Shown here one piece after another: positions 33,513 to 58,320 of a stretch of 64,000 nt of DNA. How positions within the stretch are numbered: position 1 is the first letter of the stretch; every line of letters begins with the position of its first letter. The stretch lies in contig SKCR01049632.1 in the NCBI GenBank assembly GCA_019454045.1, positions 1 through 64,000 of the forward strand, in the 5' to 3' direction. The notes beneath the pieces are model-generated. The model was not told the DNA's origin and ran no database searches. It saw only the letters and a list, made by a program, of their open reading frames with translations. Position numbers and translations under genes: made by a program. The stretch is from Zanthoxylum bungeanum. Taxonomy: Eukaryota; Streptophyta; Magnoliopsida; Sapindales; Rutaceae.

Positions 33513-34020
33513 CTAGCAAACAAGGTCTTTTTGAGTCAGATTCCTGAGACTTAACATTTGTCTTTCTTTTTGAAATTGTGTATATAACATGCGAATTTCA
33601 TGATACACACATCCATTGGGATGCGTCTTAAGAGTTTTAGATATGTCATCCAAAGACTCCTTACTCAAGCCATCCCTAATGAAGTTAATCTTATCTTCGC
33701 GGTTATCGGACACCATTCCTAAAGAACGACAAATGAGTATTACAAAATATGCGAGCACATTTATAACAAACACACATTCTTTTGGCTCTTCTCTTTTTAG
33801 CATATGTGCTCTTTCCTAAGCCAGGCAGTTGTGAAATAAAAGAGTCAGAAAACTCACCTGCCAATCGAACCCGTGCTTCAATTAACCAACGAATGTCAGT
33901 AGGAATACCTTTGATCATCAGTAGTCTCATCCGTTCTAAGCGAGCTTTGTAAACTTTCATAAGAGATTTTTGAGGGAAAGAAGGAAATTGCTTGTGAAGA
34001 TTTGCGAGAGCATCTTCCAT
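33513..34020 (-). CDS. ORF of unknown function in the E2 env position
   Basis: I do not recognise this protein. A frame starts at ATG 34018-34020 (MEDALANLHKQFPSF, then KVYKARLERMRLLMIKGIP, RWLIEARVRLAGEF) and runs in the open to 33703. A second frame, from about ATG 33713-33715 (MVSDNREDKINFIRDGL ... HEIRMLYTQFQKERQ), runs to a stop at 33513. A pyrimidine-rich 'cgttctttag' lies at the change of frame, so the two may be exons of one protein of ~170 aa, although no good donor is evident. Another acceptor (tttaatttttgcag, ending at 34037) precedes the first ATG. E4 lacks this ORF. It could be a captured host fragment or a diverged env-like protein. No transmembrane segment is obvious in the conserved parts. 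Confidence 0.4.
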
Positions 34021-34191: not shown

Positions 34192-34590
34192 TTATCGCTC
34201 AAATGATTCTCCCCAGTAGTGCTTGACACGCTTGTTTTTAACCTTGAAAGTTTTGTTAGCGTCAGGATCATGTATCTCAACGGCTCTATTTGGTAAAACT
34301 TTGGTGATCACAAATGGACCTGACCACCGTGATTTTGGCTTCCATGGGAAGAATTTCACCCTTGATTTGTTTAACAATATCTTCTGCCCTGGTTCCAGTT
34401 GTATGCGCACTAACTTCTCATCATGTCTCTTCTTGCCCTTTTCTTTGTACAATTTGGCATCATCAAAAGGCTGATTGTGAAATTCCTCCAATTCGTTGAG
34501 CTGGTGGAACTTTTTCTCTTCTGTTGCTTGTAGTGCAAGAATTGGCTCCTTCAGTACAAAAGACGCTTTATCTTTAGGCTTTACAAGCAA
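34192..34590 (-). pseudogene. E2 integrase C-terminal tail
   Basis: Encodes the end of the Athila pol polyprotein: EPGQKILLNKSRVKFFPWKP, then KSRWSGPFVITKVLP, RAVEIHDPDANKTFKV and a stop after GESFER. The equivalent in E3 is 39065-39240. Directly upstream is the deletion that removed RT, RNase H and the integrase core: the protease-RT linker (VTFNVFKAM block, about 34690-34730) joins this tail near 34600. Confidence 0.85.
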
Positions 34591-34624
34591 TTGACATGTT
34601 TTAAGTTTGTCAGTAGAACTTTAT

Positions 34625-35227
34625 CTTTTTTCAGAGTTTTGAATGGTACTGTGTATCACATCGAGTTTGAAACATTCCTCCTTCTTTTCATCATCTGGGA
34701 AATTCATGGCCTTGAAAACATTGAATGTTACTTCTTGGTCCTGTACCCTCATGGTTAATTCTCATTTTTGTACATCAATAATGGTTCGACCTGTAGCCAA
34801 GAATGGTCTCCCAAGGATGATTGGCACGTCTGCGTCTTCCTCCATATCAAGGACAATAAAATCTGCTGGGAAAATGAATTTGTCAACCTTGACCAGCACA
34901 TCCTCAACTACACCTCTTGGAAATACGAGCGTTCTATTAGCAAGTTGCAGTGAGACTGAAGTTGGCATTGTTTCTCCAATCTGTAATTTCCTGAAAATAG
35001 AAAAAAGGCATCAAGTTAACACTCGCACCTAAATCACACAAAGCCTTACCAAAGTTATGTTCTCCTATGACGCAAGGAACAGTGAAACTGCCAGGATTTT
35101 TCAACTTCAGGGGAAGTTTCCTCTGAATGATGGCACTGCATTCTTCTGTTAATGCTACTGTCTCGTAATCTCCCAATCTCCGTTTTCGTGAAAGAATATC
35201 TTTCATGAATTTGGCATAGGTGGGCAT
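34625..35227 (-). pseudogene. E2 protease region and linker
   Basis: Contains FMKDILSRKRRLGDYETV, the aspartic protease motif LCDLGASVNLMP (Asp at 35033-35035) and, after a frame change near 34975, [20 protein letters not shown] and [13 protein letters not shown]. These match E3 at 42109-42540. The DLGAS form of the D-[TS]-G motif is typical of Athila proteases. Confidence 0.82.
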
Positions 35228-36702
35228 TTGTCCAATTTGTTCTTCTGAAGACGTTGAGGAAAAGGTGGAGGTGGAATGATCTGTTTCTTTTCCTTTGCTT
35301 CTTTTTCCTCCATCTGTTGCTTTGTTTCTTTTGGAACTTCCTCAGCAGTTGTTTTGGCTCCAACATCTTTGTTGATTTCAGTACCGCTTTTTAACATGAT
35401 GGCATGACATTGCTCTTTCCCCATGTTTCTTGGATTTGGTTCAGTGTTGCTAGGAAGGGTACCTGGCGGTCTGTAACTCTGAGCATTGGCCATGTGTCCG
35501 ATTTGATTCTCCAGTGCTTTGATGGAAGCTGATTGGCTCTGAAAGATAGCATCGTACTTTTTTAACTGAGCCAGCACTTCTGCTATTCCTGGTTCATTTG
35601 CCTGCTCCTGGCCTTTGTTCTGTTTCTCGAATCCAGATGGTGGATAGTTCTGCTGTTGGCCTGAATTGTTGCTCCATGAAAAATTAGGGTGATTCCTCCA
35701 CCCTGGGTTGTAGGTGTTGGAATAAGGATTGTTCCATTGTCTGTTGAAATTGTTGACAAAATTCACCGTTTCTTCAAGTTGGTTTGACTCTGGTATTCCT
35801 CCATATGGTGAACTTATGGATCCAGTGGTAAGAGTTTCCATAAATTTGCATATCTGATCTAGCTTGGTGTTGACTGCTGTATTAGCTCCACTTTCATAAA
35901 TTCCTGCAATTCTTTGGATCATGCTCCTTTCTGTTGGCCACAAGGAATTGTTGTTGGCCATTTCTTCGATTAGGTCCCAGGCTTGATCTTCTCCTTTTGC
36001 CATCAAGGCTCCTCCAGCAGCAGCATCGATTGTGGTTCTCATTATTCCAGAAAGCCCATTATAGAATGTTTGGACTTGAAGCCATTTTGGAATCTCATGG
36101 TGAGGACATTTCCGGAGCAAATCTTTGTACCTTTCCCAAGCTTTGCAAAGGGATTCTAAATATTGTTGTACAAAGGATGTGATGTCATTCCTCAGGTTTC
36201 CGGTTCTGGCTGGTGGAAAGTACTTTGCAAGAAATTTGGTGGCTAAAGTGTTCCAAGTTGTTATGGAACCTGCTGGTAGTGAATGTAGCCAAGCTTTAGC
36301 TCCGTCCTTCAAGGAGTATGGAAAAACTCGCAGTCTCATTGCTTCTTCTGATGCTCTGTTGTAGTTAAAAGTGCCGCAAACTTCCAGGAAGTTGCTGGTG
36401 TGGGCATTAGGATCTTCAGTTGCATTCCCCCCAAACTGAACTGACTGCTGAATCATCTGAATGCATGTTTTGATGTCACACGCATTTGCTGGTAAGGGAG
36501 GAAGTACAATACAGGAAATGAGTCTGTCAACCACCGGAATGGTTCTGTCTCGAATAGGAATTGGTGGTGCAACGTTCAAAGGTTCAGGTTCCATGTTGAC
36601 TAAAGCTTCTTGGCCTTCTCGCCTTTCCCTTTTCAACTGTCTGATGGTTCTTTCAATTTCCGGGTCAAGCGGTTGGAGTTCAAAGCTTCTGGTTCGTCTC
36701 AT
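35203..36702 (-). CDS. E2 gag (Athila type), open
   Basis: Open for about 500 codons from ATG 36700-36702 (MRRTRSFELQPLDPEIERTI). Conserved gag core: CGTFNYN, LRVFPYSLKDGAKAWLHSLP, WNTLATKFLAKYFPPART, LCKAWERYKDLLRKCPHHEIP and WLQVQTFYNGL, all typical of Athila. A Q/N/P-rich tail follows with PYSNTYNPGWRNHPNFSWSN. I see no CCHC knuckle. Gag forms the virus-like particle. This is the only long intact retroelement gag in the window, so E2 RNA could still yield particles, although no pol is encoded. A possible splice acceptor (tttcag) lies just before the start. Confidence 0.88.
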   Translation of the reverse strand: MRRTRSFELQPLDPEIERTIRQLKRERREGQEALVNMEPEPLNVAPPIPIRDRTIPVVDRLISCIVLPPLPANACDIKTCIQMIQQSVQFGGNATEDPNAHTSNFLEVCGTFNYNRASEEAMRLRVFPYSLKDGAKAWLHSLPAGSITTWNTLATKFLAKYFPPARTGNLRNDITSFVQQYLESLCKAWERYKDLLRKCPHHEIPKWLQVQTFYNGLSGIMRTTIDAAAGGALMAKGEDQAWDLIEEMANNNSLWPTERSMIQRIAGIYESGANTAVNTKLDQICKFMETLTTGSISSPYGGIPESNQLEETVNFVNNFNRQWNNPYSNTYNPGWRNHPNFSWSNNSGQQQNYPPSGFEKQNKGQEQANEPGIAEVLAQLKKYDAIFQSQSASIKALENQIGHMANAQSYRPPGTLPSNTEPNPRNMGKEQCHAIMLKSGTEINKDVGAKTTAEEVPKETKQQMEEKEAKEKKQIIPPPPFPQRLQKNKLDKCPPMPNS

Positions 36703-36808
36703 GAAGTTTCTGAGAACCTGAAACACAAGAAAAAAAAAACAATAAGTAAAAAGAAATTAGATACAAGTAACGTATCTAACCCCTAAATTAATAGTAAAAG
36801 ATAATAAG

Positions 36809-39064: not shown

Positions 39065-40002
39065 CTGACCACCTCGATTTCAGCTTTCCAGGGAAAAGTT
39101 TCAACCTTGAATTGTATAACAACACCTGTTGCCTTGGTTATTCTTTGTGTAGTCTAGCATTCTCATAAGCCTGTAGGCGAAATTCCTCCAATTCGTTGAG
39201 TTGGTGGAGTCGTTTCTCTCATGCTACTTGTGGATTAAGATTTAACTTATTCAGTGCCCAATATGCTTTATGTTCAAGCTTAACTGGCAGATGTCATGCT
39301 TTCCCAAACACCATTTGATATGGATACATACCAATAGGTGTCTTGTAAGCTATCCGCAAGGCCCATAATACGTCATCTAGTTTTGTAGACCAGTCTCTCC
39401 TTGTTGATCCAACAGTTCTCTCCAAAATTCTTTTGATCTCTTTGTTTGAAACTTCAACTTGGCCATTTTACTGCGGATGGTAGGCAGTGGCAACTTTATG
39501 AGTAACTCCGTATTTGGATAGGAGTGCATCAAAGTATCTGTTGCAGAAGTGTGTGCCACCATCACTGATAATTGCCCGAGGTGTTCCGAAGTGAGTGAAT
39601 GTATTATTTTTAAGGAATTTTATCACCACATTTGAATCATTTGATGGCAGTGCTATAGCTTCAACCCATTTGGAGACGTAATATACGACAACTAGTATGT
39701 ACATGTTTTCAAATGATGGATTAAAGGGTCCCATAAAATCAATCCCCCCATACATCAAATATCTCCACTTCTAGAATGTTTTGCCGAGGTCATTCATTTC
39801 TCCTCGAAATATTTCCCGTTCTTTGGCACCTTTCACAATGAAAAGCAAATAAGTAATCATCTTTAAACAGAGTAGGCCAGAACAAACCTGACTGTAGGAC
39901 TTTGGCTGCAGTTTTATTTCCACTGAAGTGTCCGCCGTATGGTGATGAATGACAATGCTGCAAGACACAATTAAATTCCTCATATGGAACACAATGTCTC
40001 AA
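39065..40002 (-). pseudogene. E3 integrase
   Basis: Zinc-binding HHCC region at 39790-40002 (HCHSSPYGGHFSGNK ... HCERCQRTG). Core at 39468-39758: [11 protein letters not shown] with the first catalytic Asp, [11 protein letters not shown], then [15 protein letters not shown] with the second Asp. The [13 protein letters not shown] block and the glutamate region follow in another frame at 39377-39565. The C-terminal tail (39065-39240) is cut by C1. Several frame changes. Confidence 0.85.
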
Positions 40003-40104
40003 TAATTGATCAGCACAACGTTTGAACAGGTACGGCTCATCCCATTTATAGTGCTTGATTTCTTTAAAGAACTTCTTTCGTTACTGATGTGTCCATTCCA
40101 ACGG

Positions 40105-41694
40105 TCATTTTCCCGATACTATATAGTTTACATAGTTCGCATACCAAGGGACATCCTGTTGTTTCGTGGCAAACAACTGTTCATCTGGAAAAGTTTCTTT
40201 GATTGTCAGTTCATTGCCAGCTGTTTCTCCATTCTCGATCCTCGATAAGTGATATTCCACTTGGTTTTCTGTCCATTTCCTGTCTTGCATCTCTACGTCA
40301 AATTCTTGCAGCAGAAGCACCCAATAGATCAATCTAGATTTGGCATCTTTCTTCGCGATCAGGTATTTGATTGCTGAATGATCTGTGTAGACCACCGATT
40401 TAGGACCCAGCAGATAAGAAAGTAATTTATCAAAAGCAAACACAACTGTAAGCAACTCATTTTCAGTTGTTGTGTAGTTGAGTTGGCTTCATTTAGAGTT
40501 CTGCTGGAGTAGTAAATGGTATGAAATTTTTTTGCTTTGCGTTGTCCCAAAACTGCACCTACAACAAAATCATTAGCATCACATCACCTCAAATGGTAGA
40601 GTCCAGTCTGGTGCTACTATGATGGGGGCAGAGACCATCTTTTATTTTAAGATATCAAAAGCTTCGTGGCATTCTTTGGTGAAATTGAAAGGCACGTATT
40701 TCTCCAGCAAATTGCATATAGGTTTAGCAATCTTGGAGAAGTCTTTGATAAATTTCCTGTAAAATCTTGCATGTCCGAGAAAACTGCAAATCCCTTTGAC
40801 GGATGATGGTGGAGGTAGTTTTTCAATTGTCTCGATCTTTGCTTTGTCTACCTTGATTCCCTTTTGTGAGATCCGATGTCCCAGGACAATACATTCCTGC
40901 ACTATAAAATGGCATTTCTCCCAGTTGAGTACCAGGTTGGTATCTTCGCATCTTTGTAACATATTTTCCAGATTTTGCAAGCAATGGTCGAAAAAGTCTC
41001 CAAACACAGAGAAATCATCCATGAAAACCTCCATACTTTATTCCAGCATGTTTGAGAAGATTGCCATCATGCAACGTTGAAATGTGGCAGGAGCATTACA
41101 TAGTCTAAATGGCATCCTACGGAAAGCAAAAGTACCATACGGACATGTAAAAGTGATTTTCTCCTAATTTTCTAGGGCGATGGAAATCTGATTGTACCCC
41201 GAGTATCCTTCCAGAAAATATTAGAACTCATGTCCCACCAGTCTGTCTAATATCTGGTCAATGAATGACAGTGGAAAATGATATTTCCTTGTTGCTTTGT
41301 TCAGCTTCCTGTAGTCCATGCATACTCTCCATCCAGTCACCGTTCTTGTTGGAATCAGATCATTCTTTTCATTTGTGACTACAATTATTCCTCATTTCTT
41401 TGGCACACATTGCATACGACTCACCCAAGTGCTATCAGAGATGAGGTAGATGATGTCGGCATCCAACCATTTGATAATTTATTTCTTCACGACCTCCTTC
41501 ATGATTGGATTTATTCTTCGTTGATGCTCCACTGTGGCTTTGTACTCATCGTTCAATAGAATTTTATACATGCAAAATGATGGACTAATACCTCGAATGT
41601 CTGCTATAGTCCAGCCAATGGCTTTCTTGTGTTCTCGTAACACTCTCAGCAACTTATCTTCATGCTCCAATGTTAGCGACAAAGAAATAATCAC
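40105..41694 (-). pseudogene. E3 reverse transcriptase and RNase H
   Basis: RT begins within 41479-41694 (LRVLREHKKAIGWTIADIRGISP, a typical Athila pol start) and includes MEVFMDDFSVFG at 40999-41034, the F-x-D-D catalytic box, then NLVLNWEKCHFIV, VLGHRIS and the FLGHARFYRKFIKDFS connection. RNase H fragments (40105-40550) read [27 protein letters not shown] and [14 protein letters not shown]. Internal stops separate the blocks. Confidence 0.87.
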
Positions 41695-41790
41695 AGGTAA
41701 ATCAGAAGAGTTTTCTAAGAATGTATACCTGAGATGGTTTGGAAGTAGCTTTAGTTCTAGCTGTGGTGGTTCTTCAATCGAGGGCTTGAT

Positions 41791-42805
41791 TCACTCATTT
41801 TTCGATAGTTCCAAACTTTCCACATGTGGTGTTGATTTGAAGCGAAAGAGCCTGTCAAGATAGTTGATACATTCCAGAATTTCATCATCTAGCTCGCTGT
41901 CAGTCATGTAGGTGATGCAAGCTTCAAGTTTTTTCATGGAAAGTTGCATTGCATCAGTATCCTGGATGATACTATCTACAACATCAATTCTGAAACATTC
42001 CTCATCCTTTTCATCATTCGGGAATTTCATGGCTTTGAAAACATTGAAGGTAACTTCTTGGTTCTGCACTTTCATAGCCAGTTCTCCGTTTTGTATATCA
42101 ATAACAGTTCAACCTGTAGCCAAGAATGGTCTCCCGAGGATGATAGGTACATCTTTGTCTTTTTCCATGTCAAGGATAATGAAATCTGCTTGGAAAATGA
42201 ATTTGTCCACTTTAACCAATACATCTTCCACTACTCCTCTCGGAAATGTGAGTGATCTGTCAGCAAGCTGTAAAGTAACTGCGGTGGGCATTGCTTCTCC
42301 AATTTGCAGTTTCTTGTAAATAGACAAAGGCATCAAGTTAATGCTGGCACCTAAATCACACAAAGCCTTACCGAAGTAATGTTTGCCTATGGTGTAGGGG
42401 ATGGTGAAACTGCCAGGATCTTTCAACTTTGGGGGAAGTTTCCTCTGAATGATGGCGCTGCATTCTTATGTCAATGCTACTGCCACGTAATCTCCCAATC
42501 TTCTTTTTTCATGACAGAATATCTTTCATGAATTTGACATAACTGGGCATTTGTTCCAAAGCTTCTACAAATGGAATGTTGATATGCAGATTTTTGAAGA
42601 TCTCTAAGAATCGAGCAAACTGCTTATCTAGTTTAATTTTCTGGAGACGCTGCGGAAAAGGTGGAGGTGGAGTGAATTTTTCTTGATAATTTGCTTTTTC
42701 TTCTTTTTCCTCCATCTGTGGTTCTGTTTCGATGCTTTCTTTTGGAGCTTCCTTAGTGGATACATTGACTCCAATATCTTTGTTGATTTCAGTACCACTT
42801 TTCAA
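41791..42805 (-). pseudogene. E3 protease and flanking linkers
   Basis: From the right: gag-protease linker (FTPPPPFPQRLQKIKLDKQF, 42509-42805), protease with [14 protein letters not shown] (catalytic Asp 42355-42357), [12 protein letters not shown], and the downstream linker (VTFNVFKAMKFPNDEKDEE, LEACITYMTDSELDDEILE; 41791-42075). The last block is the one that survives in E4 at 52742-52830. Confidence 0.83.
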
Positions 42806-42820
42806 ATTAATGGCTTGACA

Positions 42821-44259
42821 TTACTTATTTCCTCGGTTCCTTGGATTTGGTTCTATGTTGCTATGAAGGTTAACTTGTGGTCTGTAACTCTGAGCGTTAG
42901 CCAGTTGTCCCATTTGATTCTCCAGTGCCTTCAAAGATGCTGCTTGGCTTTGAATCAATGCTGCTATGGATTGAAACATAGCATCATATGTTGCTTGTTG
43001 CCTTTTCATTTGGGCCAGCAATTCTGCTATTCCTGGTTCTTTTTCATACTCATGGCCTTTGTTTTGCTGTTGGAATCCAGGTGGTGGATTGTTCTTTTGC
43101 CCTGAATTGTTGCTCCATGCGAAATTGGGATGATTCCTCCAACCTGGGTTGTAGGTGTTAGAATATGGATTGTTCCCCGGTGTGTTGAAATTATTGACAT
43201 AATTCACCATCTCATCATGTTGGTTGAATGATTCTGCCTCTGGTGCTCCTCCATATGGTGAACTTGTGGAACCATCATCAACCTTCATGTTAAGAGTATC
43301 CAGAATTTTGCAAATTTGATCCAGCTTGGCACTCAATGCTGTGTTGGCTCCTACTTCATAGATCCATGCTATTCGTTGAATCATGCTTCTTTCTGTTGGC
43401 CACAAAGAATTATTGTTGGTCATTACTTCAATTAGGTCTCAGGCTTGATCTTCTCCTTTTGCCATTAAAGCACCTCCAACGGCATCATCAATTGTGGATC
43501 TCATCAGTCCAGAAAGTCCATTGCAGAAAGTTTGGACTTGTAGCCACTTTGCAATCTCATGGTGAGGATATTTTCTGAGCAAATCTTTGTACCTTTCCCA
43601 AGCTTCGCAGAGGGATTCTGAGTCATGTTGTACAAAGGATGTAATATCATTCATCAGCTTTGCAGTTCTAGCTGGTGGAAAGTACTTTGCAAGGAATTTG
43701 GTGGCTAGAGTGTTCCAAGTTGTGATGGAATCTGCTGGTAGTGAATGTAGCCAAGCCTTAGCTCTGTCTTTCAAGGGATATGGAAAAACACATAGTCTCA
43801 TTGCTTCTTCTGCCGCTCGGTTGTAGCTTCTTCTACCGATCGGTTGTAATTGAAAGTGCCGCAAACTTCTAGGAAGTTGCTGATGTGGGCATTAGGATTT
43901 TCAGTTGCATTCCCCCCAAACTGTACTGACTGCTGTATCATCTGGATGCATGTTTTGATGTCACATGCATTTGCTGGTAAGAGAGGAAGTACAATACATG
44001 AAATGAAGCCGTCAAGTACCAAAATAGTTCTGTCTCGAATGAGAATTGGTGGTACAACTTCCAAAGGTTCAGGTTCCATATTGTTGATTGCTTCTTGACA
44101 TTCTCGCTTTTCCCTTCTTAACTGTCTGATGGTTCTTTCAATCTGTGGATCAAGCGGACGAATTTCAAAGCTTATGGTTCTTCTCATGTGGTTTCTGAGA
44201 ACTGAAACACAAGAAAAGAGAAATAATAAATAAAGAAAATTAGACACAAGTAAAGGCAT
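42821..44259 (-). pseudogene. E3 gag, degenerate
   Basis: Same domain order as E2 gag (FEIRPLDPQIERTIRQLR, CGTFNYNR, LHSLPADSITTWNTLATKFL, WLQVQTFCNGLSG, PYSNTYNPGWRNHPNFAWSN). Broken by a ~20-bp local duplication near 43830 that repeats the YNR-EEA coding segment, by a TGA at about 43438 in the EDQA(W)DLIE segment, and by further changes. Confidence 0.87.
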
Positions 44260-44293
44260 CTAACCTCAAAATTAATAGTGAAAGATAAATAAG

Positions 44294-44311
44294 TCCCCGG
44301 CAACGGCGCCA
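44294..44311 (-). other. E3 primer-binding site, tRNA-Asp
   Basis: TCCCCGGCAACGGCGCCA on the plus strand, identical to the E2 site; 6 nt from the LTR start at 44318. Confidence 0.9.
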
Positions 44312-44317
44312 AAAACT

Positions 44318-45713
44318 TGATCGGTGAAATCACTCACGTAACGCAAGCGCATGTATCTCTCAAGTAGTATAAAATATATCGATCCCACGATGACTTAATA
44401 CCTAGGCTATTAATTTATGACGTTAAATGTTTACGAGTATATAATAGATTGGTTGTTTGATTGGATGATGAATTTAAACTAAAATAAGTAAATAAAACAG
44501 TGCGAAAGTAAATGAAAGGAAAACTCAATATTATTAAACTATCTTGGGTTGTGAATTCTTCCAATATCTCTTAAAGATGAAGTGATTATCTCATGATTGT
44601 GCAATATATCGGTTTATTAACCTAGAACACGAAATTATGAAAAAGCCTATGTCGATGGTCATATGCAAACACCCAAATAACTCAATTAATCATATGTCTA
44701 TGTTAACCAAGTTACCTGAATTCATTAAGACTGAGTTCCAATTATTGCTACCCCGCCCGACAGATATATGTCTATCATGGAAGGAAATCTATTAAAGGGT
44801 ATCTAATCCTTAAGGGAGATCGTAGGTTATTAAGTCTAAGGCTGAAACCTAAAATCCCTTTGTCAAGTTCATTTTAAGTTTACCAGATCAATCTTATTAA
44901 TGGCCAGTTAACAAGAAGCATCAAGCTTTAGACTTAATAAATAAACCTTTATATTACCCAAGACACAAAATAACCCATTATAAATCAGTGATATTGGAAT
45001 TCATCATAACCCCAAATATAGGGTTTAGTTACAACACATATCTAGAACTAGTAAAAGTTTAAATAAAGTAAATGACATAAAGTAATGCTTGGAAATTAAA
45101 AAGGTAAATTAAGTAATAAAGAAAATATCGGGGGTTAGAGGATCCACTTTTATTATTTCTATTTTAGATATCTCCCTTATTATAATATATTAACTTTGCA
45201 TGAAATTACCAACCGACCATATAGGCGGTATCCTGATTAAGTCATATTATGATTAATTCCAACCGACCATAAAGTCGGTATCCAATTTAGTCAGGTTAAA
45301 ATCAATTTAATTAAGTCCAACCGACCATAAAAGGCGATATCCCATTAAGTCAGGTTTTAAAATAGTTTATATATTATTATTAAGGGAGATTAATCTAAAT
45401 ATCAGTAATAAAAGCTTAATCTTTCACCCCAGCAGAGATGAGTTACCTCATCATACTGAAAAGTAAAAATAAAGACTGAAAAGTAAAATAAAGAAAGTAC
45501 TATTGCGTAAAATAAATAAAATTAAATACAGAAAGTTGTAAATAAACAAACAAGATATAATCTTATTAGTATTCTTAAGGAATTCCCCAGAAGAATGTAT
45601 AAATTTTGCTTCTGATTTCAGTTTCAATTTATAGGCAAATTTTTGCCCCGCGCGTCGCGATGCAAAGTACTTGTGCGTCGCGACGCGCCACTGATTCAAC
45701 GCGATGATGACAC
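44318..45713 (-). repeat. E3 5' LTR, outer end missing
   Basis: Begins TGATCGGTGAAATC next to the primer site and aligns with E2 and E4 LTRs through 'cgatcccacga', the 'ccaaccgaccat...ggcggtatcc' repeats and the leader. TATA (TTTATA at 45628) and two GCGTCGCGAYGC palindromes (45652-45663, 45675-45686) lie near the break. At 45714 a copia LTR starts; the missing ~150-300 bp are not found after 61378. Confidence 0.82.
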
Positions 45714-48934: not shown

Positions 48935-49559
48935 CGCATATCGATACAATATAGCAGTCATGCAGCAAAAGTCTCCCATTGGGTAAGGGAATCTCGCATA
49001 AGCCCACTGTAATCCCATCCAGAGAGTCACCACTCCTGAACCGCAACTTCATCTCTCCAGATTTCAGCTGTCTACTTTCATTCAGCACCTGCAAAAAATT
49101 GCAAATGTGAACAGGACAAGTAGAATCTAAAATCCAACTTGATGTGACAACTTCGTAGGTTAATGAGATATCAATAACGGGAAAAATAAAAGTACCGGAT
49201 GTTCCTGATCTGGGCAAGGTAGTCAGGACAGTTCATTTTCCAGTGCCTGACTTCTGACAGTGATGGCATTTATCTTAAAAAGCTCTCTTGGGCTTCACTA
49301 TCTTAGCCTGCGAAGGAATATTGAAACCTTTCTTCTTTTTTCCCTTCGTCTTCATCCCCTTCGACTTGGAGTGGGAAGAAGCGAAAAGTGAAGTGGGTTT
49401 CAGAAGGCTAGTCGGCAATCCCTTATTCAAATCCTCATCCGCTATGAGAATCATCCTATGCAACTCACGATAAGTGCAGTGAATCCCGTTCATGTTGAAG
49501 TACATAACAAACTGGCGATATGACGTCAGAAGCGAACCAAGAATGACACTCCGTCCCAG
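48935..49559 (-). pseudogene. C3 gag C-terminal part and protease
   Basis: Gag core NTLGRSVILGSLLTSYRQFV at 49500-49575 and a K-rich linker (SKGMKTKGKKKKGFNIP), then, after frame loss near 49275, a protease-like segment IFPVIDIS and WILDSTCPVHICNFLQ (48873-49217). Matches C1 at 22633-23000 and 25423-25771, without the S1 insertion. Confidence 0.8.
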
Positions 49560-49873
49560 AGTATTGATGAGTGGTAAATCTATCACTATTTCCCACTCAT
49601 TTAACCTAATATTTTGTATAGTTTCTTGAGTTTTGTGAATATTTTGATGTGTTTTGTGTTATTTTGCAGATAAATAAAGTTGGAAAAGCATTGGAAGAAA
49701 ATTGGGGCGAAAATAGAGAAAAATTGACAAAATGGCAATTCAGTAAATTGTCTGCGTCGCGACGGCAAGACCTTCCGCGTCGCGACGCCTAACGTGTGCC
49801 GAATAGTGCTAACGTGCGCCGGGTCCACAAATCAGAATCTGAGAAAAGTTTGACTTTGATAACGTGCGATGTG

Positions 49874-50263
49874 CCACGTGTCACCATCACAGCCGATCTG
49901 CTAACATGCGTCGTGCCACGTGTCAGCATCCTACGGTGCCGACAGTCATCATCGCCATGTGTGCCATGTGTCACTCCACGTCATTGCCGCGTCATCAGCC
50001 ACATCACCAGGTTGACCAAGTCAAACTGCCACCTCATCGCCACGTCATCATCAGCGAATCAGGAAGTGCCACGTGTCGCAATCCTACAGTGCCGACAGTC
50101 TCTTTCCCACGTGTCGCCACATCACCGCCACGTCACCGCCATGTTAGCATCAATCATTGAGTATCTAATCCTTATCTGACACGTGGCGGATAAGAATCTC
50201 ATCGACCAATCAGAAGCCGCCACGTGTCACAATAATTGAAGCCCAACCACCTCGCCACGTGTC
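49874..50263 (+). promoter_or_regulatory. Cluster of G-box/ABRE-like CCACGTGTC sites in the E4 LTR
   Basis: Perfect CCACGTGTC (or complement) at 49874, 49916, 50069, 50107, 50178 (reverse), 50220 and 50255, plus CCATGTGTC at 49964. CACGTG is the core bound by plant bZIP and bHLH factors in ABA, light and stress responses. The cluster ends ~120 bp before the TATA box, the position expected for a U3 enhancer. The 3' LTR has a similar cluster with several C-to-T or G-to-A losses. Confidence 0.7.
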
Positions 50264-50381
50264 ACCTTATCATCTTATCCAGAATCTACAAACCGACGAA
50301 CCAGAGCGTGCCACGTCGATAGAATCTGGCGTAGCGACGCCAAAGGCCCTGGCGTCGCGACGCTGGAAGCCTACCGAGGCC

Positions 50382-50390
50382 TATAAATAG
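50382..50390 (+). promoter_or_regulatory. E4 LTR TATA box
   Basis: TATAAATAG preceded by the palindromic GCGTCGCGACGC (50352-50363) and GCGTAGCGACGC (50329-50340). Identical in the 3' LTR. Transcription would start near 50410-50420. Confidence 0.65.
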
Positions 50391-51783
50391 AGCTTCAAAT
50401 TTCAGTTTTAGTTGCACCACTCTCTCTCATCTCTTTGATGTAAAGAGAGAGTTTATCTCTCTAGTTTCTTTTAGTTTTTAGTTTTTTTTTAGTTTTTTTT
50501 AGTTTTGTAAATAATTTTAATTACGTTTTATTAATATAGTAATTTACTTTTTTACTTTTTATAGTTTTTACTATTCACCATGAGGAGGTAACTTTCCCAG
50601 CTAGGGTGAAAGGTAATTCTTTTACTGTTACTATTTATATTAATCTCCCTTAAAAATAATATATTCACTATTTAAAATATTGACTTAAAAAGGATACCGC
50701 CAGATTGGTCGGTTGGTAATTCATTTTAATCTGGTTTAAACCTGACTAATCAAGGATACCGCCAGATTGGTCGGTTGGTAATTTAATTTTGGTTCCGCCT
50801 TTATGGCTGGTTGGACTTAATTTGACTTAATCAGGTTACCGCCTATATGGCTGGTTGGAAAAAAGAATCAAAAGTTTATATATTATTTTATAGGAGATAT
50901 CTAAAATAGTAAATAGTAAAAGTAATTCCTTTTACCTTAGCATTTTATTTTATTTTACTTTTCAGATTTTACTTTATGTCTTTTACTTTTCAGTATTTTT
51001 ACTTTATGTCTTTTACTTTTAAGTTTTTATTAGCCATAGTTATGTGTTAGTTATCTGGAGTTGTGATGAATTCTAATATCACCGGTTTATAAGGGGTTAT
51101 TTTATAGTTTGGGTAATTTAACGGTTTACTTATTAAGTCTTAAACTTAATGCTTCTTGTTGTCTGATTACCAGTAAGATTGATGAGGTAAATCTAAAATG
51201 AACTAGACATAGGGATTTTAGGTTTCAGTCTTAGACTTAATAGCCCACGATCTTCATTGATGATATATAACCCTTTAATAGATTTCCTTACAGGATAGAC
51301 ATATACCTGTCGGGCGGGGGTAGCTATAATTGGAACTTAAACTTAATGAATCCAGATAATTTGGTTGACATAGACATATGGTTCAATTGGGTTAAACTGA
51401 GTATTTGCGTCTGACCATCGACATAGGCTTGCATAATTTACCGTTCCAGGTTAGTAAACTGATTTATTACACAAACATAAAATAATCACTTGATCTTTTA
51501 AAAGATATTAGAAGGATTCACAACCCTAGATCTTTGTGTCTTTTGTTATTTTCCTTAGTATTTTCTTTTGTCTTTTTATTTATTTATTTATTTTGTAAAA
51601 CTACAATCAACCAAATCAATCAAGCAATCATTCTCTTCACCCTCATTTAGATATTTGTAAATAAATAGATTCAATAATTAATAACAACAGTAGATATTAT
51701 GTCCTCGTGGGATCGATATTTTTATACTACTTGTACGATACGTGCGCTTGCGTTATACGTGTGTGTTTACGCCGGTCAAGTTT

Positions 51784-51801
51784 TGGCGCCGTTGCCAGGG
51801 A
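51784..51801 (+). other. E4 primer-binding site, tRNA-Asp
   Basis: TGGCGCCGTTGCCAGGGA, one mismatch to the complement of the tRNA-Asp 3' end, 5 nt after the LTR. Confidence 0.88.
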
Positions 51802-51908
51802 CTTATTTTTCTTGAGTTATTAATTTTGAAGCTATCTCATTTACTTGTATCTAATTTTCATTATCTGTAATTTTTATTTCCTTATTTTATTTTTCAGGTG
51901 ATTGAAAA

Positions 51909-52678
51909 ATGGAACATTATTGGGAGATTGAGAGATTACGTACCTTACAAGAAGATACATCCCAAATCTGGGAGCAACAGTCCGATTTTCTGAGGCCTGT
52001 TGTCCAGCCCAACAATTATCACTGGATGCCAGAACCAACATTTGCTCAACAGAACGCAATGGGGAGATGTGATATATGTAATGGTAACCACCCTAGAGAT
52101 TATTGTGAATACAACTACCATACAGGGTGGCAGAGCTATCAAGATCCTTCATGGTATGACGAGCCATCACATTTCACAGAACCACATTTTCCATCTTATC
52201 CACCATCTACCTATGATCTTCATCAACAACCAGAACCATCAGAGGAAGATCAGTTGCCAAACATGCTCGAAGATATGTTCAAGAAACGAAAAGAAAAGTT
52301 GGATACAATTCTTGAAACAATTCAGAATCAATTTCAAAGTATTAAGAGACAATCAGAATTCATTCAGAGGATGATAGATCAAATGAGACAATTCACAGAA
52401 AACCAGAACTACATACCTCAAGAACCAGTTTCAGATGACACTGATGAAGCCTTCGAGTACCAATCATTTCACAATGACACTTCAACAGAGGAAGAGGCTG
52501 AGCAGTATCAACAACCAGAGGTATCAGTTCAGGAGCCCGGACCGGCAAAGTCTCAATTTGACTTTTATTATTCAGATTCTGACGAGGATGAAGCTGATCT
52601 ATTGTACCCACTGCACCAACAACAGAGGATCAAACTTTCAATCCTCAAAATGAAGATCTTGGATAATGATTTACCATG
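51909..52678 (+). CDS. E4 nucleocapsid-like gag remnant ORF (256 aa)
   Basis: Open frame from the first ATG after the primer site. It lacks the particle-forming gag core seen in E2. Residues ~58-70 contain CDICNGNHPRDYC, a CX2CX3HX4C knuckle of the form found late in Athila gag, followed by a proline/tyrosine-rich stretch, a helical K/Q-rich segment (MFKKRKEKLDTILETIQNQF) and an acidic tail. It could bind RNA and aid packaging by a helper's gag; that is inference. A short polyprotein-linker ORF overlaps its end. Confidence 0.65.
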
Positions 52679-52963
52679 ATGTTTGAAGAAGATCTACCTG
52701 AACCATCCATTCCAGTCGTATCAGAGGATGAAAACCTAATGTCAGAAACATCTTTGCATCTTCAGGTTGACAATTTTGAAGCATGTATTTCACAGATGAC
52801 AGATGAAGAGCTGAATACAAAAATTTTACAATACATCTGTGAAGAAAATGTGGAGCAAGAAACAGAGCAAATGGAAGAGCAAATGTCTGACCTTAATAAA
52901 GATCCAGAGCATTCAAGAGAAACATTGTTGTTTTGGGGAGTACAAATCAAAGATATCGCCTAG
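52676..52963 (+). pseudogene. E4 remnant of the protease-RT linker
   Basis: The stretch FEACISQMTDEELNTKILQYI corresponds to LEACITYMTDSELDDEILE in the E3 linker between protease and RT. The E4 gag-pol thus joins knuckle to linker with the protease removed; RT, RNase H and integrase are missing downstream. Confidence 0.65.
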
Positions 52964-52975
52964 AAGCTTGACAGA

Positions 52976-53194
52976 ATGGAACTCCCATTCCAAGTCACGC
53001 ACCATACGAGACCTCCTGATTTTCTTTCTTTCTTTATAGGAACCACTGGAGTAACAAGGAGCAAAAAGGTGGCACGAGCACTGAATAGGAAAAAATTCTT
53101 TTTGCCACTTTACCGTTGGAAGAGACCCTTCAAAAGCAATGCTCACAGGATTGTCTTTAATCAGACATCCAAAATGACATTGAAATCTCCTTAA
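52976..53194 (+). CDS. Short basic ORF of unknown role in E4
   Basis: Encodes about 72 aa with TTGVTRSKKVARALNRKKFF and a basic C-terminus; I do not recognise it. It ends just before 'gcgctagtagggaggcaacccatgcaa', a segment also found in E2 after the integrase tail, so it may be the diverged end of pol. Coding status is uncertain. Confidence 0.3.
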   Translation: MELPFQVTHHTRPPDFLSFFIGTTGVTRSKKVARALNRKKFFLPLYRWKRPFKSNAHRIVFNQTSKMTLKSP

Positions 53195-53652
53195 CATATG
53201 AATTTCAGTCACGTCTGGCTGAAGACGAAAAATTTAGCGCTAGTAGGGAGGCAACCCATGCAATTTGTTGTAATTTTTGTTTTCATATTTTGTGTATACA
53301 TGTTGTAGAGTTTTTAATTTTGTGTGTTATTTTTGTAGGGGAAAGCACAAACGAAGCATTTTAAGACAGAAGGAATTGTGTTTGGCAATCAAAGAAGAGA
53401 AACAATTCATTAGCGATGGCTGAGTAAGGAATAAAATCTTGAGACGCATTCTAATGAATTTATACTAAGCGAGTGGCGTATTGCGTACACAATTCTGTTG
53501 CCTTAATTATTGCTTTGATTCGTTTTTCTGTTGTAATTATCTTTATTTTCGTAGACAGGATCCAGACTTTTTGACCTTTCAAGATTTCTTTTGTTGTTTA
53601 GCTAACAATCGTCCTTTGGAAGATATTAGTGCTATTATTACTCACCTTTTTT

Positions 53653-53656
53653 CAGG
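53653..53656 (+). promoter_or_regulatory. Candidate 3' splice site upstream of E4 LOG
   Basis: attactcaccttttttcag|gtac, 68 bp before the LOG ATG, conserved with E2 (33279-33282). Suggests a spliced subgenomic LOG mRNA from the LTR promoter. The donor is not identified. Confidence 0.5.
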
Positions 53657-53723
53657 TACTATAAATTCATCCCGTCATTACACTTTTGAATGCATCCAGA
53701 GTTGAAAAAGAAATACATAAAAA

Positions 53724-54377
53724 ATGGAAGCCACTTCAAGAAGACGAGTTGAAAACATCTGTGTGTTTTGCGGTACTAGTGTTGGTACTAAGCCACAATA
53801 CGTAGAGGCAGCACATGAATTGGGTCGAGTCTTAGCTACAAGGAATATGCACTTAATATATGGCGGAGGCAATCTCGGACTTATGCGGATCGTTTCAAAG
53901 GCTGTACAGGAAGGAGGCAGTCATATTTTTGGAATCATCCCAAAACCTTTGGCAGAGGCAAATCTTATTGGATCATCAAACAGAGAGGAACTGATCGTGC
54001 TAGGTATGTCTGAACGACTGATAGAAATGATTAACCGTGCTGATGCTTTTATCGCTTTGCCAGGTGTCTTGGGTACATTGGAGGAAATTTTTATAGTATT
54101 ATCTTGGGCGAACCTGAACATACACCAGAAACCGCTTGGACTGTTCAACGTTGATGGATTTTATGATTTTCTTTGTGTGTTTCTTGATGATGCTTGGAGA
54201 AATGGGTTCATGTCAAAACCTATGAAAGAACTCCTCTTCACTGCCAGAACTGCTCCGGATCTAATAGACCAACTCATAGCCTATGAACCACAAGTTGACC
54301 CTATCCTTTCAAAGATAAATTGGTCCAATGACGATCGTGGTAAGAGGCGTCGGATTAATCTGGATTTTAACCTTTAA
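53724..54377 (+). CDS. LOG: E4-borne LOG-like cytokinin riboside 5'-monophosphate phosphoribohydrolase
   Basis: Intact 217-aa, intronless frame. LOG enzymes hydrolyse cytokinin nucleotides to the free base plus ribose 5-phosphate, the direct activation step. Family features seen: ICVFCGTSVG (residues 12-21), LIYGGGNLGLM (44-54), MSERLIEM (95-102) with the conserved Arg, the signature at 113-121, WANLNIHQKPLGLFNVDGFY (128-147). Two glycines conserved in the family are changed: Gly to Arg at 55 and the second Gly of PGGxGTxxE to Val at 115 (here PGVLGTLEE); E2 retains Gly at both. The C-terminus has KRRR and INLDFNL. The ORF occupies the env-like position, after pol remnants and before the 3' region. 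Activity is doubtful given G115V, but the frame has been kept open. Confidence 0.9.
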   Translation: MEATSRRRVENICVFCGTSVGTKPQYVEAAHELGRVLATRNMHLIYGGGNLGLMRIVSKAVQEGGSHIFGIIPKPLAEANLIGSSNREELIVLGMSERLIEMINRADAFIALPGVLGTLEEIFIVLSWANLNIHQKPLGLFNVDGFYDFLCVFLDDAWRNGFMSKPMKELLFTARTAPDLIDQLIAYEPQVDPILSKINWSNDDRGKRRRINLDFNL

Positions 54378-55690
54378 CTTTTCGTGTAAGACTTTCAGCT
54401 AACCAGGTATTATCTTCTAAACTCTTCTTCTACTGTATAAGACATTGGGGACAATGTCTCATTTAGGTTTGGGGAAGGGAATTATTTGATCAGTACCTTG
54501 TTTTTAGTTGTGTGTTATTTTTTTATTTTTTAGTCCAAATTTTTTTCGAAAAATACAAAAAAAAATTGGAAAAGTTTCAAAAATTACAAAAATATTTTGC
54601 ATTTTTATTTGACTAAAAAGGTGAAATTGGTAAGAGATAGCTGAGTAAGGAGTTTCCACTCCTGAGACGTATCTCAAACCTATTTCGAAACAAGTTAATT
54701 TTTGTTTATTTCATTTTGAATTATTTAATTTGTGAATTCTCCTTAAAACGGACTAAAATGGATCTTCATATGCTCAGTTGACAGATATTATCAACATATA
54801 TAGTAACATACGGACATGAGCTAAAATTGAAAAGTTTGTAATATTCAGTGCTCTAGTTTAATTGGAGGAAATATCTTAAAAAGCAATGGAGTAAAAAAAA
54901 AAAAAAAAAAAAAAAACGTATGAGATCTAAGTTATTAAGTCTGTAAGGGTGTTTTAACACCTAGTGCCCTAAAGCCAACTGGTTTGGGAGTCACTGGCCC
55001 AAAGCTCGTTACATGGATCGAAGATACTGCAAAAATATATATATCTGAAGTCTGAGTAATTAAGTCCGTAGGGATGTCTTAACACCTGATACCCTAAAGC
55101 CAACTGGTTTGGGAGGCACCGACCCAACACTCGCTACATAGATGGAAGGTATTGTATATAAATAAAAAAATAGAGAAAAATCAAAGAAAAAATCAGAAAA
55201 ATGAGAAAAATTATTCCATTGCTACAAAAAGGTGTGAAATCTGATAGAACTTTAGGACAAAAATATTACTCTCTTATCAACTGCACTTATGACTGTTATG
55301 GGCAAAAATAAGTTGTTTAATATTTTGTTGGCTATGTATACGAATGGTAAAAATAATCGGAGAATTTACTTATTCAGTAATTTAGAATAAAACAAAACAA
55401 CTAGTAACTTGGAGTAGAAGTTTCACCTGATTAGTCACTAACATCTTTATTCTCTTTTCGCTTGTCTTTTTGCTTTTGTGTGCATTTGTTTTACTACCTT
55501 TTTACTTTTGTAAAATTTTTGTGGGTATCATTGCTGTAAACCCTCACGAGACTACAACTCGTCCACTAGGGACACATAGGGGTTTAAAGGCTTGTTGCAT
55601 ACGCTAAATGCAACCGTGATCCCTACGAAAGTGGCTTAGTTAATTTATTTATGTTATTTTATGTTTTGCTCGAGGACTAGCAAAATGTTA
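54378..55690 (+). other. E4 3' untranslated region
   Basis: Non-coding and collinear with E2 31287-32574 in the opposite orientation, including the duplicated block (54940-55150) with core 'ccaactggtttgggag'. A-rich run at 54894-54916. Confidence 0.75.
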
Positions 55691-55702
55691 GGTTTGGGGG
55701 TG
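55691..55702 (+). other. E4 polypurine tract
   Basis: GGTTTGGGGGTG immediately before TGATGAGTGG; the same as in E2. Confidence 0.88.
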
Positions 55703-57850
55703 TGATGAGTGGTAAATCTATCACTATTTCCCACTCATTTAACCTAATATTTTGTATAGTTTCTTGAGTTTTGTGAATATTTTGATGTGTTTTGTGTTAT
55801 TTTGCAGATAAATAAAGTTGGGAAAGCATTGGAAGCAAATTGGGGCGAAAATAGAGAAAAATTGACAAAATGGGAATTCAGTAAATTATCCGCGTCGCGA
55901 CGCCAAGACCGAAAAGTTTGACTTTGCTAACGTGCGTCGTGCCACGTGTCACCATCACAGCCGATCTGCTAACATACGCCGTGCCACGTGTCAGCATCCT
56001 ACGGTGCCGACAGTCATCATCGCCACGTGTCACTCCACGTCATTGCCGCGTCATCAGCCACATCACCAGGTTGACCAAGTTAAACTACCACCTCATCGCC
56101 ACGTCATCATCAGCGAATCAGGAAGTGCCACGTGTCGCAATCCTACGGTGCCGACAGTCTCTTTTCACGTGTCGCCACGTCACCGCCACGTCACCGCCAC
56201 GTCATTGAGTATCTAATCCTTATCTGACACATGGCGGATAAGAATCTCATCGACCAATCAGAAGCCGCCATGTGTCACAATAATTGAAGCCCAACCAGCT
56301 TGCCACGTGTCACCTTATCAGCTTATCCAGAATCTGCAAACCGACGAACCAGAGCGTGCCACGACGATAGAATCTGGCGTAGCGACGCCAAAGGCCCTGG
56401 CGTCGCGACGCTGGAAGCCTACCGAGGCCTATAAATAGAGCTTCAAATTTCAGTTTTAGTTGCACCACTCTCTCTCATCTCTTTGATGTAAAGAGAGAGT
56501 TTCTCTCTCTAGTTTCTTTTAGTTTTTTGTTTTTTTTTTAGTTTTTTTTAGTTTTATAAATAATTTTAATTACGTTTTGTTAATATAGTAATTTACTTTT
56601 TTACTTTTTATAGTTTTTACTATTCACAATGAGGAGGTAACTTTCTCAGCTAGGGTGAAAGGTAATTCTTTTACTGTTACTATTTAGATTAATCTCCCTT
56701 AAAAATAATATATTCACTATTTAAAATATTGACTTAAAAAGGATACCGCCAGATTGGTCGGTTGGTAATTCATTTTAATCTGGTTTAAACCTGACTAATC
56801 AAGGATACTGCCAGATTGGTCGGTTGGTAATTTAATTTTGGTTCAGCCTTTATGGCTGGTTGGACTTAATTTGACTTAATCAGGTTACCGCCTATATGGC
56901 TGGTTGGAAAAAGAATCACAAGTTTATATATTATTTTATAGGAGATATCTAAAATGGTAAATAGTAAAAGTAATTCCTTTTACCTTAGCATTTTATTTTA
57001 TTTTACTTTTCAGCTTTTACTTTATGTCTTTTACTTTTCAGTATTTTTACTTTATGTTTTTTCAGTATTTTTACTTTATGTCTTTTACTTTTAATTTTTT
57101 ATTAGCCCTAGTTATGTGTTAGTTATCTGGGGTTGTGATGAATTCTAATATCACCGGTTTATAAGGGGTTGTTTTATAGTTTGGGTAATTTAAAGGTTTA
57201 CTTATTAAGTCTTAATCTTAATGCTTCTTGTTGTCTGATCACCAATAAGATTGATGTGGTAAATCTAAAATGAACTAGACATAGGGATTTTAGGTTTCAG
57301 CCTTAGACTTAATAGCCCACGATCTTCCTTGAGGATAGATAACCCTTTAATAGATTTCCTTACAGGATAGACATATACCTGTCGGGCGGGGGTAGCTATA
57401 ATTGGAACTTAAACTTAATGAATCCAGATAATTTGGTTGACATAGACATATGGTTCAATTGGGTTAAACTGGGTATTTGCGTCTGACCATCGACATAGGC
57501 TTTTGCATAATTTAGTGTTCCAGGTTAGTAAACTGATTTATTACACAAACATAAAATAATCACTTCATCTTTTAAAAGATATTAGAAGGATTCACAACCC
57601 TAGATCTTTGTGTCTTTTGTTATTTTCCTTAGTATTTTCTTTTATCTTTTTATTTATTTATTTATTTTGTAAAACTACAATCAACCAAATCAATCAAGCA
57701 ATCATTCTCTTCACCCTCAATTAGATATTTGTAAATAAATAGATTCAATAATTAATAACAACAGTAGATATTAAGTCCTCGTGGGATCGATATTTTTATA
57801 CTACTTGAACGATACGTGCGTTTGCGTTATACGTGTGTTTACGCCGGTCA
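55703..57850 (+). repeat. E4 3' LTR (2148 bp)
   Basis: Same ends as the 5' LTR; lacks a ~70-bp segment after 55905. Three G-box sites present in the 5' LTR are altered here (for example ACATGG and CCATGTGTC near 56230-56275). Confidence 0.94.
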
Positions 57851-58320
57851 AGTATCATTGAGAAGGAAATCACTGCGCCTCAATTGCTCGATCAAATTGA
57901 TCAAATGAAACACATGTGTGCTCACAGCCTATCCCTCGTCAAGTTTAGAATGGAACAGTTCCATTGCTACTCCATGAACCAAGACATGTTCTTTGTTCAT
58001 GAACGATTCATAGAGTTATGTCATTATGCTATAAGCATCATGCATCTCAAAATATTGCCTCTTGAGTTCAGAAGCCAGAGAACTAAGAATGTATGATTTA
58101 ACCCTTAAATCATCATCTTTCCATTTCTGGAAAGTCTCAATCTCTTCTGGTGATGCATTTACAATATAACAAGGGGCAATGGACCCTCTAGTATATATCC
58201 CAGCTTCTCGGACCCGAGGACGATCCTTAAATCCATATCACAGTCTGTAAATTTCTCAACGCCTTTGAGCTTATTTGTATCAAACATATGAGCAAATGGG
58301 TTGTTCGAAGAAGCTGCCAT
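57851..58320 (-). pseudogene. C3 gag N-terminal part
   Basis: Starts at ATG 58318-58320 (MAASSNNPFAHMFDTNKLKG), then KFTDCDMDLRIVL, matching C1 gag. Stops and frame changes follow before the E4 insertion point at 57851. Continues at 49559 leftwards. Confidence 0.8.

Follow-up and report, generated by a model that had tools for sequence, protein, structure and literature searches.

A LOG-family gene with altered pocket residues and a C-terminal tail in LTR retrotransposons of Zanthoxylum bungeanum

Accessory genes in plant LTR retrotransposons

A LOG-family domain in plant Ty3/gypsy elements is already known as a class, the YgdH domain, tied to LONELY GUY, being reported in the relevant passages of PMC9289625 for long terminal repeat (LTR) retrotransposon consensuses of Citrus sinensis and C. 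clementina, and for Populus trichocarpa only without a filter, a finding described as 'in line with' Steinbauerova 2011 (as cited in PMC9289625). The present analysis concerns E4, an LTR retrotransposon of Zanthoxylum bungeanum, and the LOG-like gene that E4 and the neighbouring element E3 carry ahead of the polypurine tract (PPT); both lie in a window of 64,000 nucleotides (contig SKCR01049632.1, positions 1 to 64,000, assembly GCA_019454045.1). As in the Citrus and Populus elements, the LOG-family domain of E4 is an extra domain. The passages of PMC9289625 on those elements contain nothing on pocket loss, an LxLxL tail, a neighbouring gene resembling carlavirus nucleic acid-binding proteins (NABPs) or cassette exchange, and no report of pocket remodelling, tail, viral-type partner or cassette exchange was found among the open-licence papers searched. 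An enzyme domain of host type has also become fixed in Ty3/gypsy elements of Phalaenopsis: an m6A (N6-methyladenosine) demethylase domain. The enzyme is a different one, and the elements, as described in the same passages (PMC9289625), are nested in the Tat family beside Ogre.

Athila-type elements, as presented in the passages used from Vicient and Casacuberta 2020 (PMC7264820), have an extra sense open reading frame (ORF) between pol and the 3′ LTR, the position of the LOG-like ORFs of E4 and E3; that extra ORF encodes an env-like transmembrane protein, whereas those of the E4/E3 type encode an enzyme resembling LOG and an NABP-like protein with a zinc finger. With the plant LOGs AtLOG3 (2a33) and AtLOG8 (1ydh) the clade of E4 has in common the sequence family and the catalytic Arg and Glu, but its tail-bearing members lack the proposed prenyl/adenine pocket residues, have gained a C-terminal basic and LxLxL tail and are intronless. 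Host LOG genes usually have introns. Large LTRs and the type of primer site are presumably shared by E4 and E3 with Athila, and both elements are taken to be Athila-like from the primer-binding site (PBS), the wording of the gag match and the gene order. The carlavirus NABPs (PF01623, PF05515), which according to the passages cited include a silencing suppressor in potato virus M (PVM; PMC10219291) and, in chrysanthemum virus B (CVB), a p12 that is also a nuclear transcriptional activator (PMC7588395), share both model matches with the NABP-like genes of the elements; the latter differ in their length of about 182 residues, in an extra conserved C-terminal part and, in the contig L002 described below, in standing after integrase.

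A LOG-like clade with an altered pocket and a C-terminal tail

The LOG-like ORF of E4 is open and intronless, as an earlier note made from the sequence alone had described it, and matches PF03641 at 107.3 bits against a cut-off of 27. Its best match among the sequences of solved structures is 2a33 (E 3.8e-56), with 46% identity to the aligned stretch of AtLOG3. The family motifs mentioned in the note are present in part: PF03641 and the catalytic Arg99 and Glu122 (CgLOG numbering here and below) are kept, and the motif PGGxGTxxE is incomplete, E4 reading PGVLGTLEE with the second glycine lost (PGG to PGV). An AlphaFold model of the protein, with a mean predicted local distance difference test score (pLDDT) of 81.1 and a predicted template modelling score (pTM) of 0.80, is mostly confident in the body and falls under pLDDT 50 at residues 1-5 and in the tail, 204-217. 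The passages of PMC4979012 on LOG residues assign Arg99 and Glu122 to catalysis and place His97, Lys100 and Glu125 in a proposed prenyl site, which in that source was derived by superposition. The positions Met96/His97/Lys100/Glu125/Trp129 of the site read Met/Ser/Leu/Ile/Trp in both E4 and E3.

Relatives were collected in two protein searches. For the first, with the E4 LOG as query, the best 120 of 1042 matches were listed; the closest of these is a short unnamed ENA contig at 85% identity, and the listed 'hypothetical proteins' of Xanthoceras sorbifolium and proteins of Populus are 48-55% identical to the E4 LOG, three of the Populus relatives being annotated LOGL10 (P0038, P0045, P0054). 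The second, with a mixed alignment, matched host LOGs from many plants and contributed 110 new proteins from the best 120 of 7998, this total being the candidates with most shared words. In the tree of LOG and host genes that the note had proposed, calculated from 69 hand-chosen proteins of the 230 together with E4 and the first piece of the E3 gene, 35 element-type and 36 host rows are split by one branch with a support of 100/100, present in 100% of 200 bootstrap trees; 'element-type' is a label given by clade and by the report in PMC9289625. That E4 recently picked up a host LOG mRNA is rejected on the strength of this deep clade, which holds 0 of the 36 sampled host LOGs. The supported part of the note's proposal is mobilisation: the gene is intronless, lies between the 3′ interior and the PPT in two elements whose LTRs clearly differ, and is related to genes of several plants. 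Capture by E4 itself, or recently, is not supported.

Residues were scored in an alignment of 225 of the 230 proteins (five longer than 300 residues were omitted) with E4 and the first E3 piece. All scored residues are intact in the host-type rows (105/105) and equally in the element-type rows that end RRLA, RKLA or RRLD and have no LxLxL tail (10/10). The 98 element-type rows with an LxLxL tail by a loose pattern, E4 among them, keep Met96 in 95, Trp129 in 96, Arg99 in 90 and Glu122 in 95, and have mostly lost three of the proposed pocket residues, with His97 kept in 8, Lys100 in 1 and Glu125 in 1. Another 14 rows of element type belong to no class; most of them are truncated, and the E3 piece is one of the 14. 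The exception is P0044, which has an LxLxL tail and a complete pocket. The Populus protein P0038, for all its LOGL10 annotation, is without Lys100 and Glu125. On the tree, which shares alignment columns with the traits, the fewest changes required are one each for Lys100, Glu125 and the tail and two for His97. The order read from it would be a basic tail, then the LxLxL extension, then pocket loss and then loss of His97.

The tail follows the same division. LxLxL occurs in the last 12 residues of 87 of the 120 listed proteins of the first search versus 0 of the 110 new proteins of the second, and a basic cluster in 102 of 120 versus 2 of 110; these two, the Xanthoceras proteins P0123 and P0196, end in a KKR-type cluster and are classed as element-type. 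Among first-search relatives of at least 205 residues, LxLxL ends 78 of 99 and PGGxGTxxE is present in 83 of 99. A basic patch followed by LxLxL is what a nuclear signal and an ERF-associated amphiphilic repression (EAR) motif usually look like. Scans of viral_contigs returned no match with the E4 LOG and 72 stretches with the LOG alignment, one of which is a LOG-like stretch of 37% identity in the viral contig L001 (1337-1660). A weak match in L003, 37% over 51 columns, was not used.

The shared cassette, the NABP-like partner and competing explanations

E4 and E3 have in common a cassette that comprises LOG and the 3′ noncoding sequence up to the PPT (Table 1), and these are the only two LOG copies in the window. 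The second locus mentioned in the note is thus present, and it sits in an LTR element of its own, at the same place relative to the PPT as in E4 and with PGGxGTxxE retained. Counted per 150 bases, identity between the two elements is 86-97% within the cassette and drops to 77% at the LTR start; in the LTR it is 44-54% in U3, which is not truly alignable, and 65-94% over the rest, the longer alignable LTR pieces being 76-84% identical. The Kimura two-parameter (K2P) distance is 0.074 for the noncoding stretch from LOG to PPT and 0.34 for the whole 5′ LTR alignment, the latter inflated by the non-aligning U3 parts. Because the cassette is 93% identical and the alignable LTR parts 76-84%, the LOG-to-PPT cassette has probably been exchanged between element lineages, and exchange is the best reading since selection on LOG cannot account for the conserved noncoding flank. 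Template switching in reverse transcription would yield such an exchange; less likely alternatives to an exchange are a 3′ region under unusual constraint and LTRs that change faster. On the same comparison of LTR parts with the cassette (93.0%), E3 and E4 are rejected as plain sister copies.

In E3 the LOG gene is preceded by an NABP-like gene, which itself follows an integrase remnant; the note had mentioned neither this gene nor the tail nor the cassette exchange. For the first piece of the NABP-like gene, PF01623 (E 2.7e-6) and PF05515 (E 6.1e-6) both score over their curated cut-offs. With E 0.001 as the limit, 74 relatives of the gene are found, most of them unnamed; the named ones come from Xanthoceras, three Orobanche species, Acer and one Acinetobacter baumannii record (P0282) that is taken as plant contamination, and none of the named proteins, a minority of the 74, is viral. 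PF05515 is matched by 10 of 10 relatives scanned (54-104 residues) and PF01623 by 9 of 10 (27-39 residues), and ten shuffled or reversed controls gave 0 matches to either model, one reversed control matching the cysteine-rich PF01657 at 5.9e-4, below its cut-off. A chance match of the frame is rejected on these controls. The longer relatives have about 182 residues, and K75, K76, R78, A79, K80, C85 and C88 are invariant in a 25-row alignment in which two further cysteines are nearly so; the basic KKRRAK stretch with the four-cysteine cluster after it presumably corresponds to the arrangement in carlavirus NABPs. The structure model of the protein is poor (pLDDT 58.5), and a scan of viral_contigs with the NABP alignment gave 97 pattern stretches and no relative.

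An intact copy of the NABP-like gene is found in L002, a contig of 3330 bases from the genome_contigs scan. It is filed under a Candidatus Nomurabacteria metagenome-assembled genome (MAG) and looks, in the judgement adopted here, like a plant retrotransposon contig that contaminates the MAG. Its integrase (PF00665, PF17921) is followed about 200 bases downstream by the NABP-like frame, 1799-2344, in which PF05515 passes and PF01623 is just below its cut-off. Between E3 and L002 the gene has a nonsynonymous divergence (dN) of 0.235 and a synonymous divergence (dS) of 1.07, near saturation, consistent with constraint. The search for an NABP-like frame in E4 gave nothing beyond a stretch that aligns weakly. 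A single predicted protein of Acer yangbiense, P0300, matches the two NABP models and also, below its cut-off, the SLOG cluster model. A search of open-licence papers turned up no description of such a carlavirus-type gene from plant retrotransposons, which is weak evidence.

Taken as a whole, these data are best explained, with somewhat better than even confidence, by a repurposed accessory protein module and not by a cytokinin enzyme. E4 and E3 would belong to an Athila-like Ty3/gypsy group with accessory genes downstream of pol, and would themselves have lost pol and been mobilised in trans. The LOG-like gene would derive from a spliced LOG mRNA of a host that was captured once, long ago, a single capture being suggested because the LOG is intronless and forms a single clade. 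Remodelling would have started with a basic tail ending KKRRLA or KRRRLD beside a normal pocket, continued with extension of the tail to ...LDLxLxL, the pocket still being normal as in P0044, and led to loss of the proposed N6-prenyl pocket residues with the catalytic Arg/Glu and mostly the phosphate loop kept. The product would be a nuclear protein by virtue of its basic patch, may recruit a TOPLESS-type co-repressor through LxLxL, and would have a phosphoribohydrolase activity that is altered or vestigial and not cytokinin-activating. Together with its NABP-like neighbour, a putative silencing suppressor, it may form a host-manipulating module that acts on silencing, transcription or cell state and favours transposition, to the benefit of the element; most of the relatives would then be element-borne. 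Judged from these sequences, the most likely role is that of accessory proteins which aid the element by opposing its host or by working through it. A more specific form of this explanation is tentative and, on balance, doubtful: a two-gene counter-defence or reprogramming module that combines a carlavirus-type zinc-finger silencing suppressor or effector of transcription with a nuclear, nucleotide-binding, co-repressor-recruiting former LOG devoid of cytokinin specificity, which perhaps senses or destroys another nucleotide (e.g., an immune one), the pair moving as a cassette between lineages.

Several observations weigh against the repurposed module. Both LOG copies in the window are defective, E4 by PGV and by a tail (GKRRRINLDFNL) in which LxLxL is degenerate as LDFNL, E3 by a broken frame despite its PGG and LDLNL, and LxLxL is in any case a short motif. 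Location in an element is seen directly only for E3 and E4 and, by its gene model, for P0300. The sampled host set consists of the best-scoring LOG1/3/7/8 type, without more distant host LOGs. Many of the 98 tail-bearing rows are closely related, so that the counts on the tree carry more weight than the raw ones. The catalytic Arg is absent in 8 of the 98, and with PGGxGTxxE missing from 16 of 99 first-search proteins of at least 205 residues decay is common. L002 has no LOG in the 1 kb that remains past its NABP-like gene, so the NABP-like gene can occur after pol alone, and LOG may have been added in some lineages. The interval on dN/dS for the LOG pair extends to 1.02.

That interval belongs to a comparison which the note had envisaged among element copies generally and which was made for the E4/E3 pair: dS is 0.100, dN 0.046 and dN/dS 0.46 (bootstrap 0.22-1.02, with the ratio under 1 in 97.3% of 1000 resamplings), which supports past constraint weakly. 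The damage to both copies and the upper bound of this ratio fit a passenger, i.e., a decaying retrogene caught by chance beside the PPT, with the likeness of E3 and E4 due to recent common descent only, as does a noncoding 3′ flank about as conserved as LOG itself (K2P 0.074 vs dS 0.10). Such an origin is nevertheless unlikely, as a length of about 217 residues and the catalytic residues are kept among proteins only about 50% identical, the tail and pocket changes map to one or two changes each on the tree, and the LTR parts at 76-84% beside a cassette at 93% speak against recent common descent of whole elements. Still less credence is given to a LOG that remains cytokinin-activating, raises active cytokinin at sites of element expression and keeps the cells meristematic, to the advantage of heritable transposition. 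The PF03641 match, the retention of Arg99 and Glu122 in most relatives and the complete pocket of the tail-less element-type rows (10/10) agree with such an enzyme, but His97, Lys100 and Glu125 are lost in E4, in E3 and in nearly all tail-bearing relatives, and E4 is without the second glycine of PGG. An active cytokinin enzyme is not supported, given the loss of proposed pocket residues in this part of the clade and the changed phosphate loop of E4. From its sequence the E4 protein is probably no working enzyme any more; tail-less and P0044-like forms may still make cytokinin, whereas E4 and its close kin are unlikely to. An origin of the clade as a normal LOG subfamily of the host (LOGL10) which lost its introns and reached repeats by local recombination is very improbable, the public LOGL10 names of P0038, P0045 and P0054 being outweighed by the same placement of both window copies relative to the PPT beside different LTRs, by the joining of LOG-like residues to an NABP-like gene in P0300 and by YgdH in the LTR-retrotransposon consensuses of Citrus and Populus (in the passages of PMC9289625). 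The situation that the note had set against its own proposal, LOG copies at these loci only and flanked by host LOG sequence with introns, was not seen in the window and the sequence collections searched.

What the extra ORFs of plant LTR elements do has long been asked, and the LOG case makes sharp predictions. The repurposed module suggests that a captured hormone enzyme can become a different accessory protein of a mobile element in readable steps, and the NABP-like gene suggests a connection between plant retrotransposons and a family of silencing suppressors known from RNA viruses. For annotation, Populus proteins named LOGL10 or cytokinin phosphoribohydrolase (e.g., P0038) may be element-derived and perhaps inactive on cytokinin.

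Element boundaries, undetected pol and neighbouring elements

The LTR pair, target-site duplication (TSD), PBS and PPT of E4 (Table 1) bear out the note's description of a bounded element. E4 begins with TGATGAGTGG at 49565 and ends with CCGGTCA at 57850; the end of the 5′ LTR is set at 51778 by the repeated end ACGCCGGTCA, and TGGCGCCGTTGCC follows five bases past it at 51784, the PBS being presumably tRNA-Asp-like. Aligned over 2120 sites, the two LTRs show 59 substitutions (31 transitions, 28 transversions), besides indels, which gives a K2P of 0.0284 calculated with the 5′ LTR as 49565-51777, one base short. At plant substitution rates of 0.7-1.3 x 10^-8 per site per year the insertion is about 1 to 2 million years old. 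It looks like a clean insertion into another element, since a frame continues across the junction once the flanks are joined with a single AGTAT, with stops elsewhere in the frame; this frame (49265-49564 and 57856-58155, minus strand), which has no database match, is taken to be a Ty1/copia gag.

Within the 3.9 kb interior of E4, 9 of the 12 plus-strand stop-to-stop pieces of at least 55 residues were scanned against Pfam, and the eight non-LOG pieces among them gave no match to gag, protease, reverse transcriptase (RT), RNase H or integrase models; the 'gag-pol remnants' of the note were too strong a description. The 256-residue ORF may perhaps be gag-derived, a guess. E4 looks non-autonomous because it has no pol domain match and no place matched by the integrase-bearing L002 query. 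That query matches E3 at 34602-34165 by its C-terminal part only, and E5, a related element next to E3, at 40350-39066. E3 likewise lacks RT, RNase H and the integrase core, since its integrase C-terminal remnant lies only about 160 bases from a protease-like end at 34762 (RVP_2 14.5 bits, below its cut-off). The stop-interrupted E5 has matches above cut-off to PF00078, PF17917, PF17921 and PF00665, a protease below cut-off and gag pieces with 83% and 67% identity to the E3 gag; no LOG was found in it by tblastn. It represents the type of element that could supply enzymes as a helper, although E5 itself is broken. E3 probably landed in or beside E5, because the integrase match of the latter ends about 100 bases before the 5′ LTR of E3; the rest of E5 was not found.

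Table 1. Features of E4, E3 and E5 in the window
Feature	Positions	Strand	Basis
E4, LTR retrotransposon	49565-57850	+	LTR pair, TSD, PBS, PPT
Left TSD copy AGTAT	49560-49564	.	sequence
5′ LTR of E4	49565-51778	+	direct repeat with 55703-57850; ends TG...CA
PBS of E4, TGGCGCCGTTGCCAGGGA	51784-51801	+	sequence
256-residue ORF with CDICNGNHPRDYC cysteine-histidine cluster	51909-52679	+	Pfam: no family above its cut-off
LOG and 3′ noncoding sequence up to PPT, common to E4 and E3	53590-55690	+	1899/2042 aligned sites identical (93.0%)
LOG-like ORF of E4, 217 residues, intronless, open	53724-54377	+	PF03641; 5′ of PPT
PPT of E4, GGTTTGGGGGTG	55691-55702	+	directly 5′ of 3′ LTR
3′ LTR of E4	55703-57850	+	direct repeat with 5′ LTR
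Right TSD copy AGTAT	57851-57855	.	sequence; exact match to left copy
E3, second LOG-bearing element	38963-29211	-	flanks AATAA / AATAT, 4/5 match
gag of E3	35203-36726	-	PF03732 E 1.2e-20
Integrase C-terminal remnant of E3	34192-34620	-	40% over 146 columns to end of L002 integrase frame; without Pfam match
NABP-like gene of E3, one frameshift and one stop	33471-34020	-	PF01623, PF05515; tblastn 81% in two pieces
LOG-like gene of E3, one stop and one frameshift; tail GKRRRVNLDLNL	32578-33227	-	tblastn
E5, related element: LTR, gag, RT, RNase H, integrase pieces, stop-interrupted	39066-45534	-	LTR likeness and Pfam

The gag regions of E3 and E5 contain, in antisense orientation, two Rfam snoR71 matches that exceed the gathering score (36092-36198 and 43554-43660, both plus strand); these reflect either a snoRNA family with retroelement members or spurious matches. 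Between LOG and PPT, E4 has a 125-base tandem duplication (54906-55030 and 55031-55155, 78% alike), and E3 has the same. A hairpin-like motif, TGAGTAAGGA...GAGACG, occurs three times in the window, at 53421-53446 (+), 54642-54669 (+) and 32310-32283 (-), and 0 times in 100 shuffles; it is a possible RNA signal of these elements. The fold z of the hairpin stretches is -2.2 (54630-54685) and -1.5 (53405-53460), and that of a related stretch within the NABP-like coding region of E3 (33690-33615) is -3.5.

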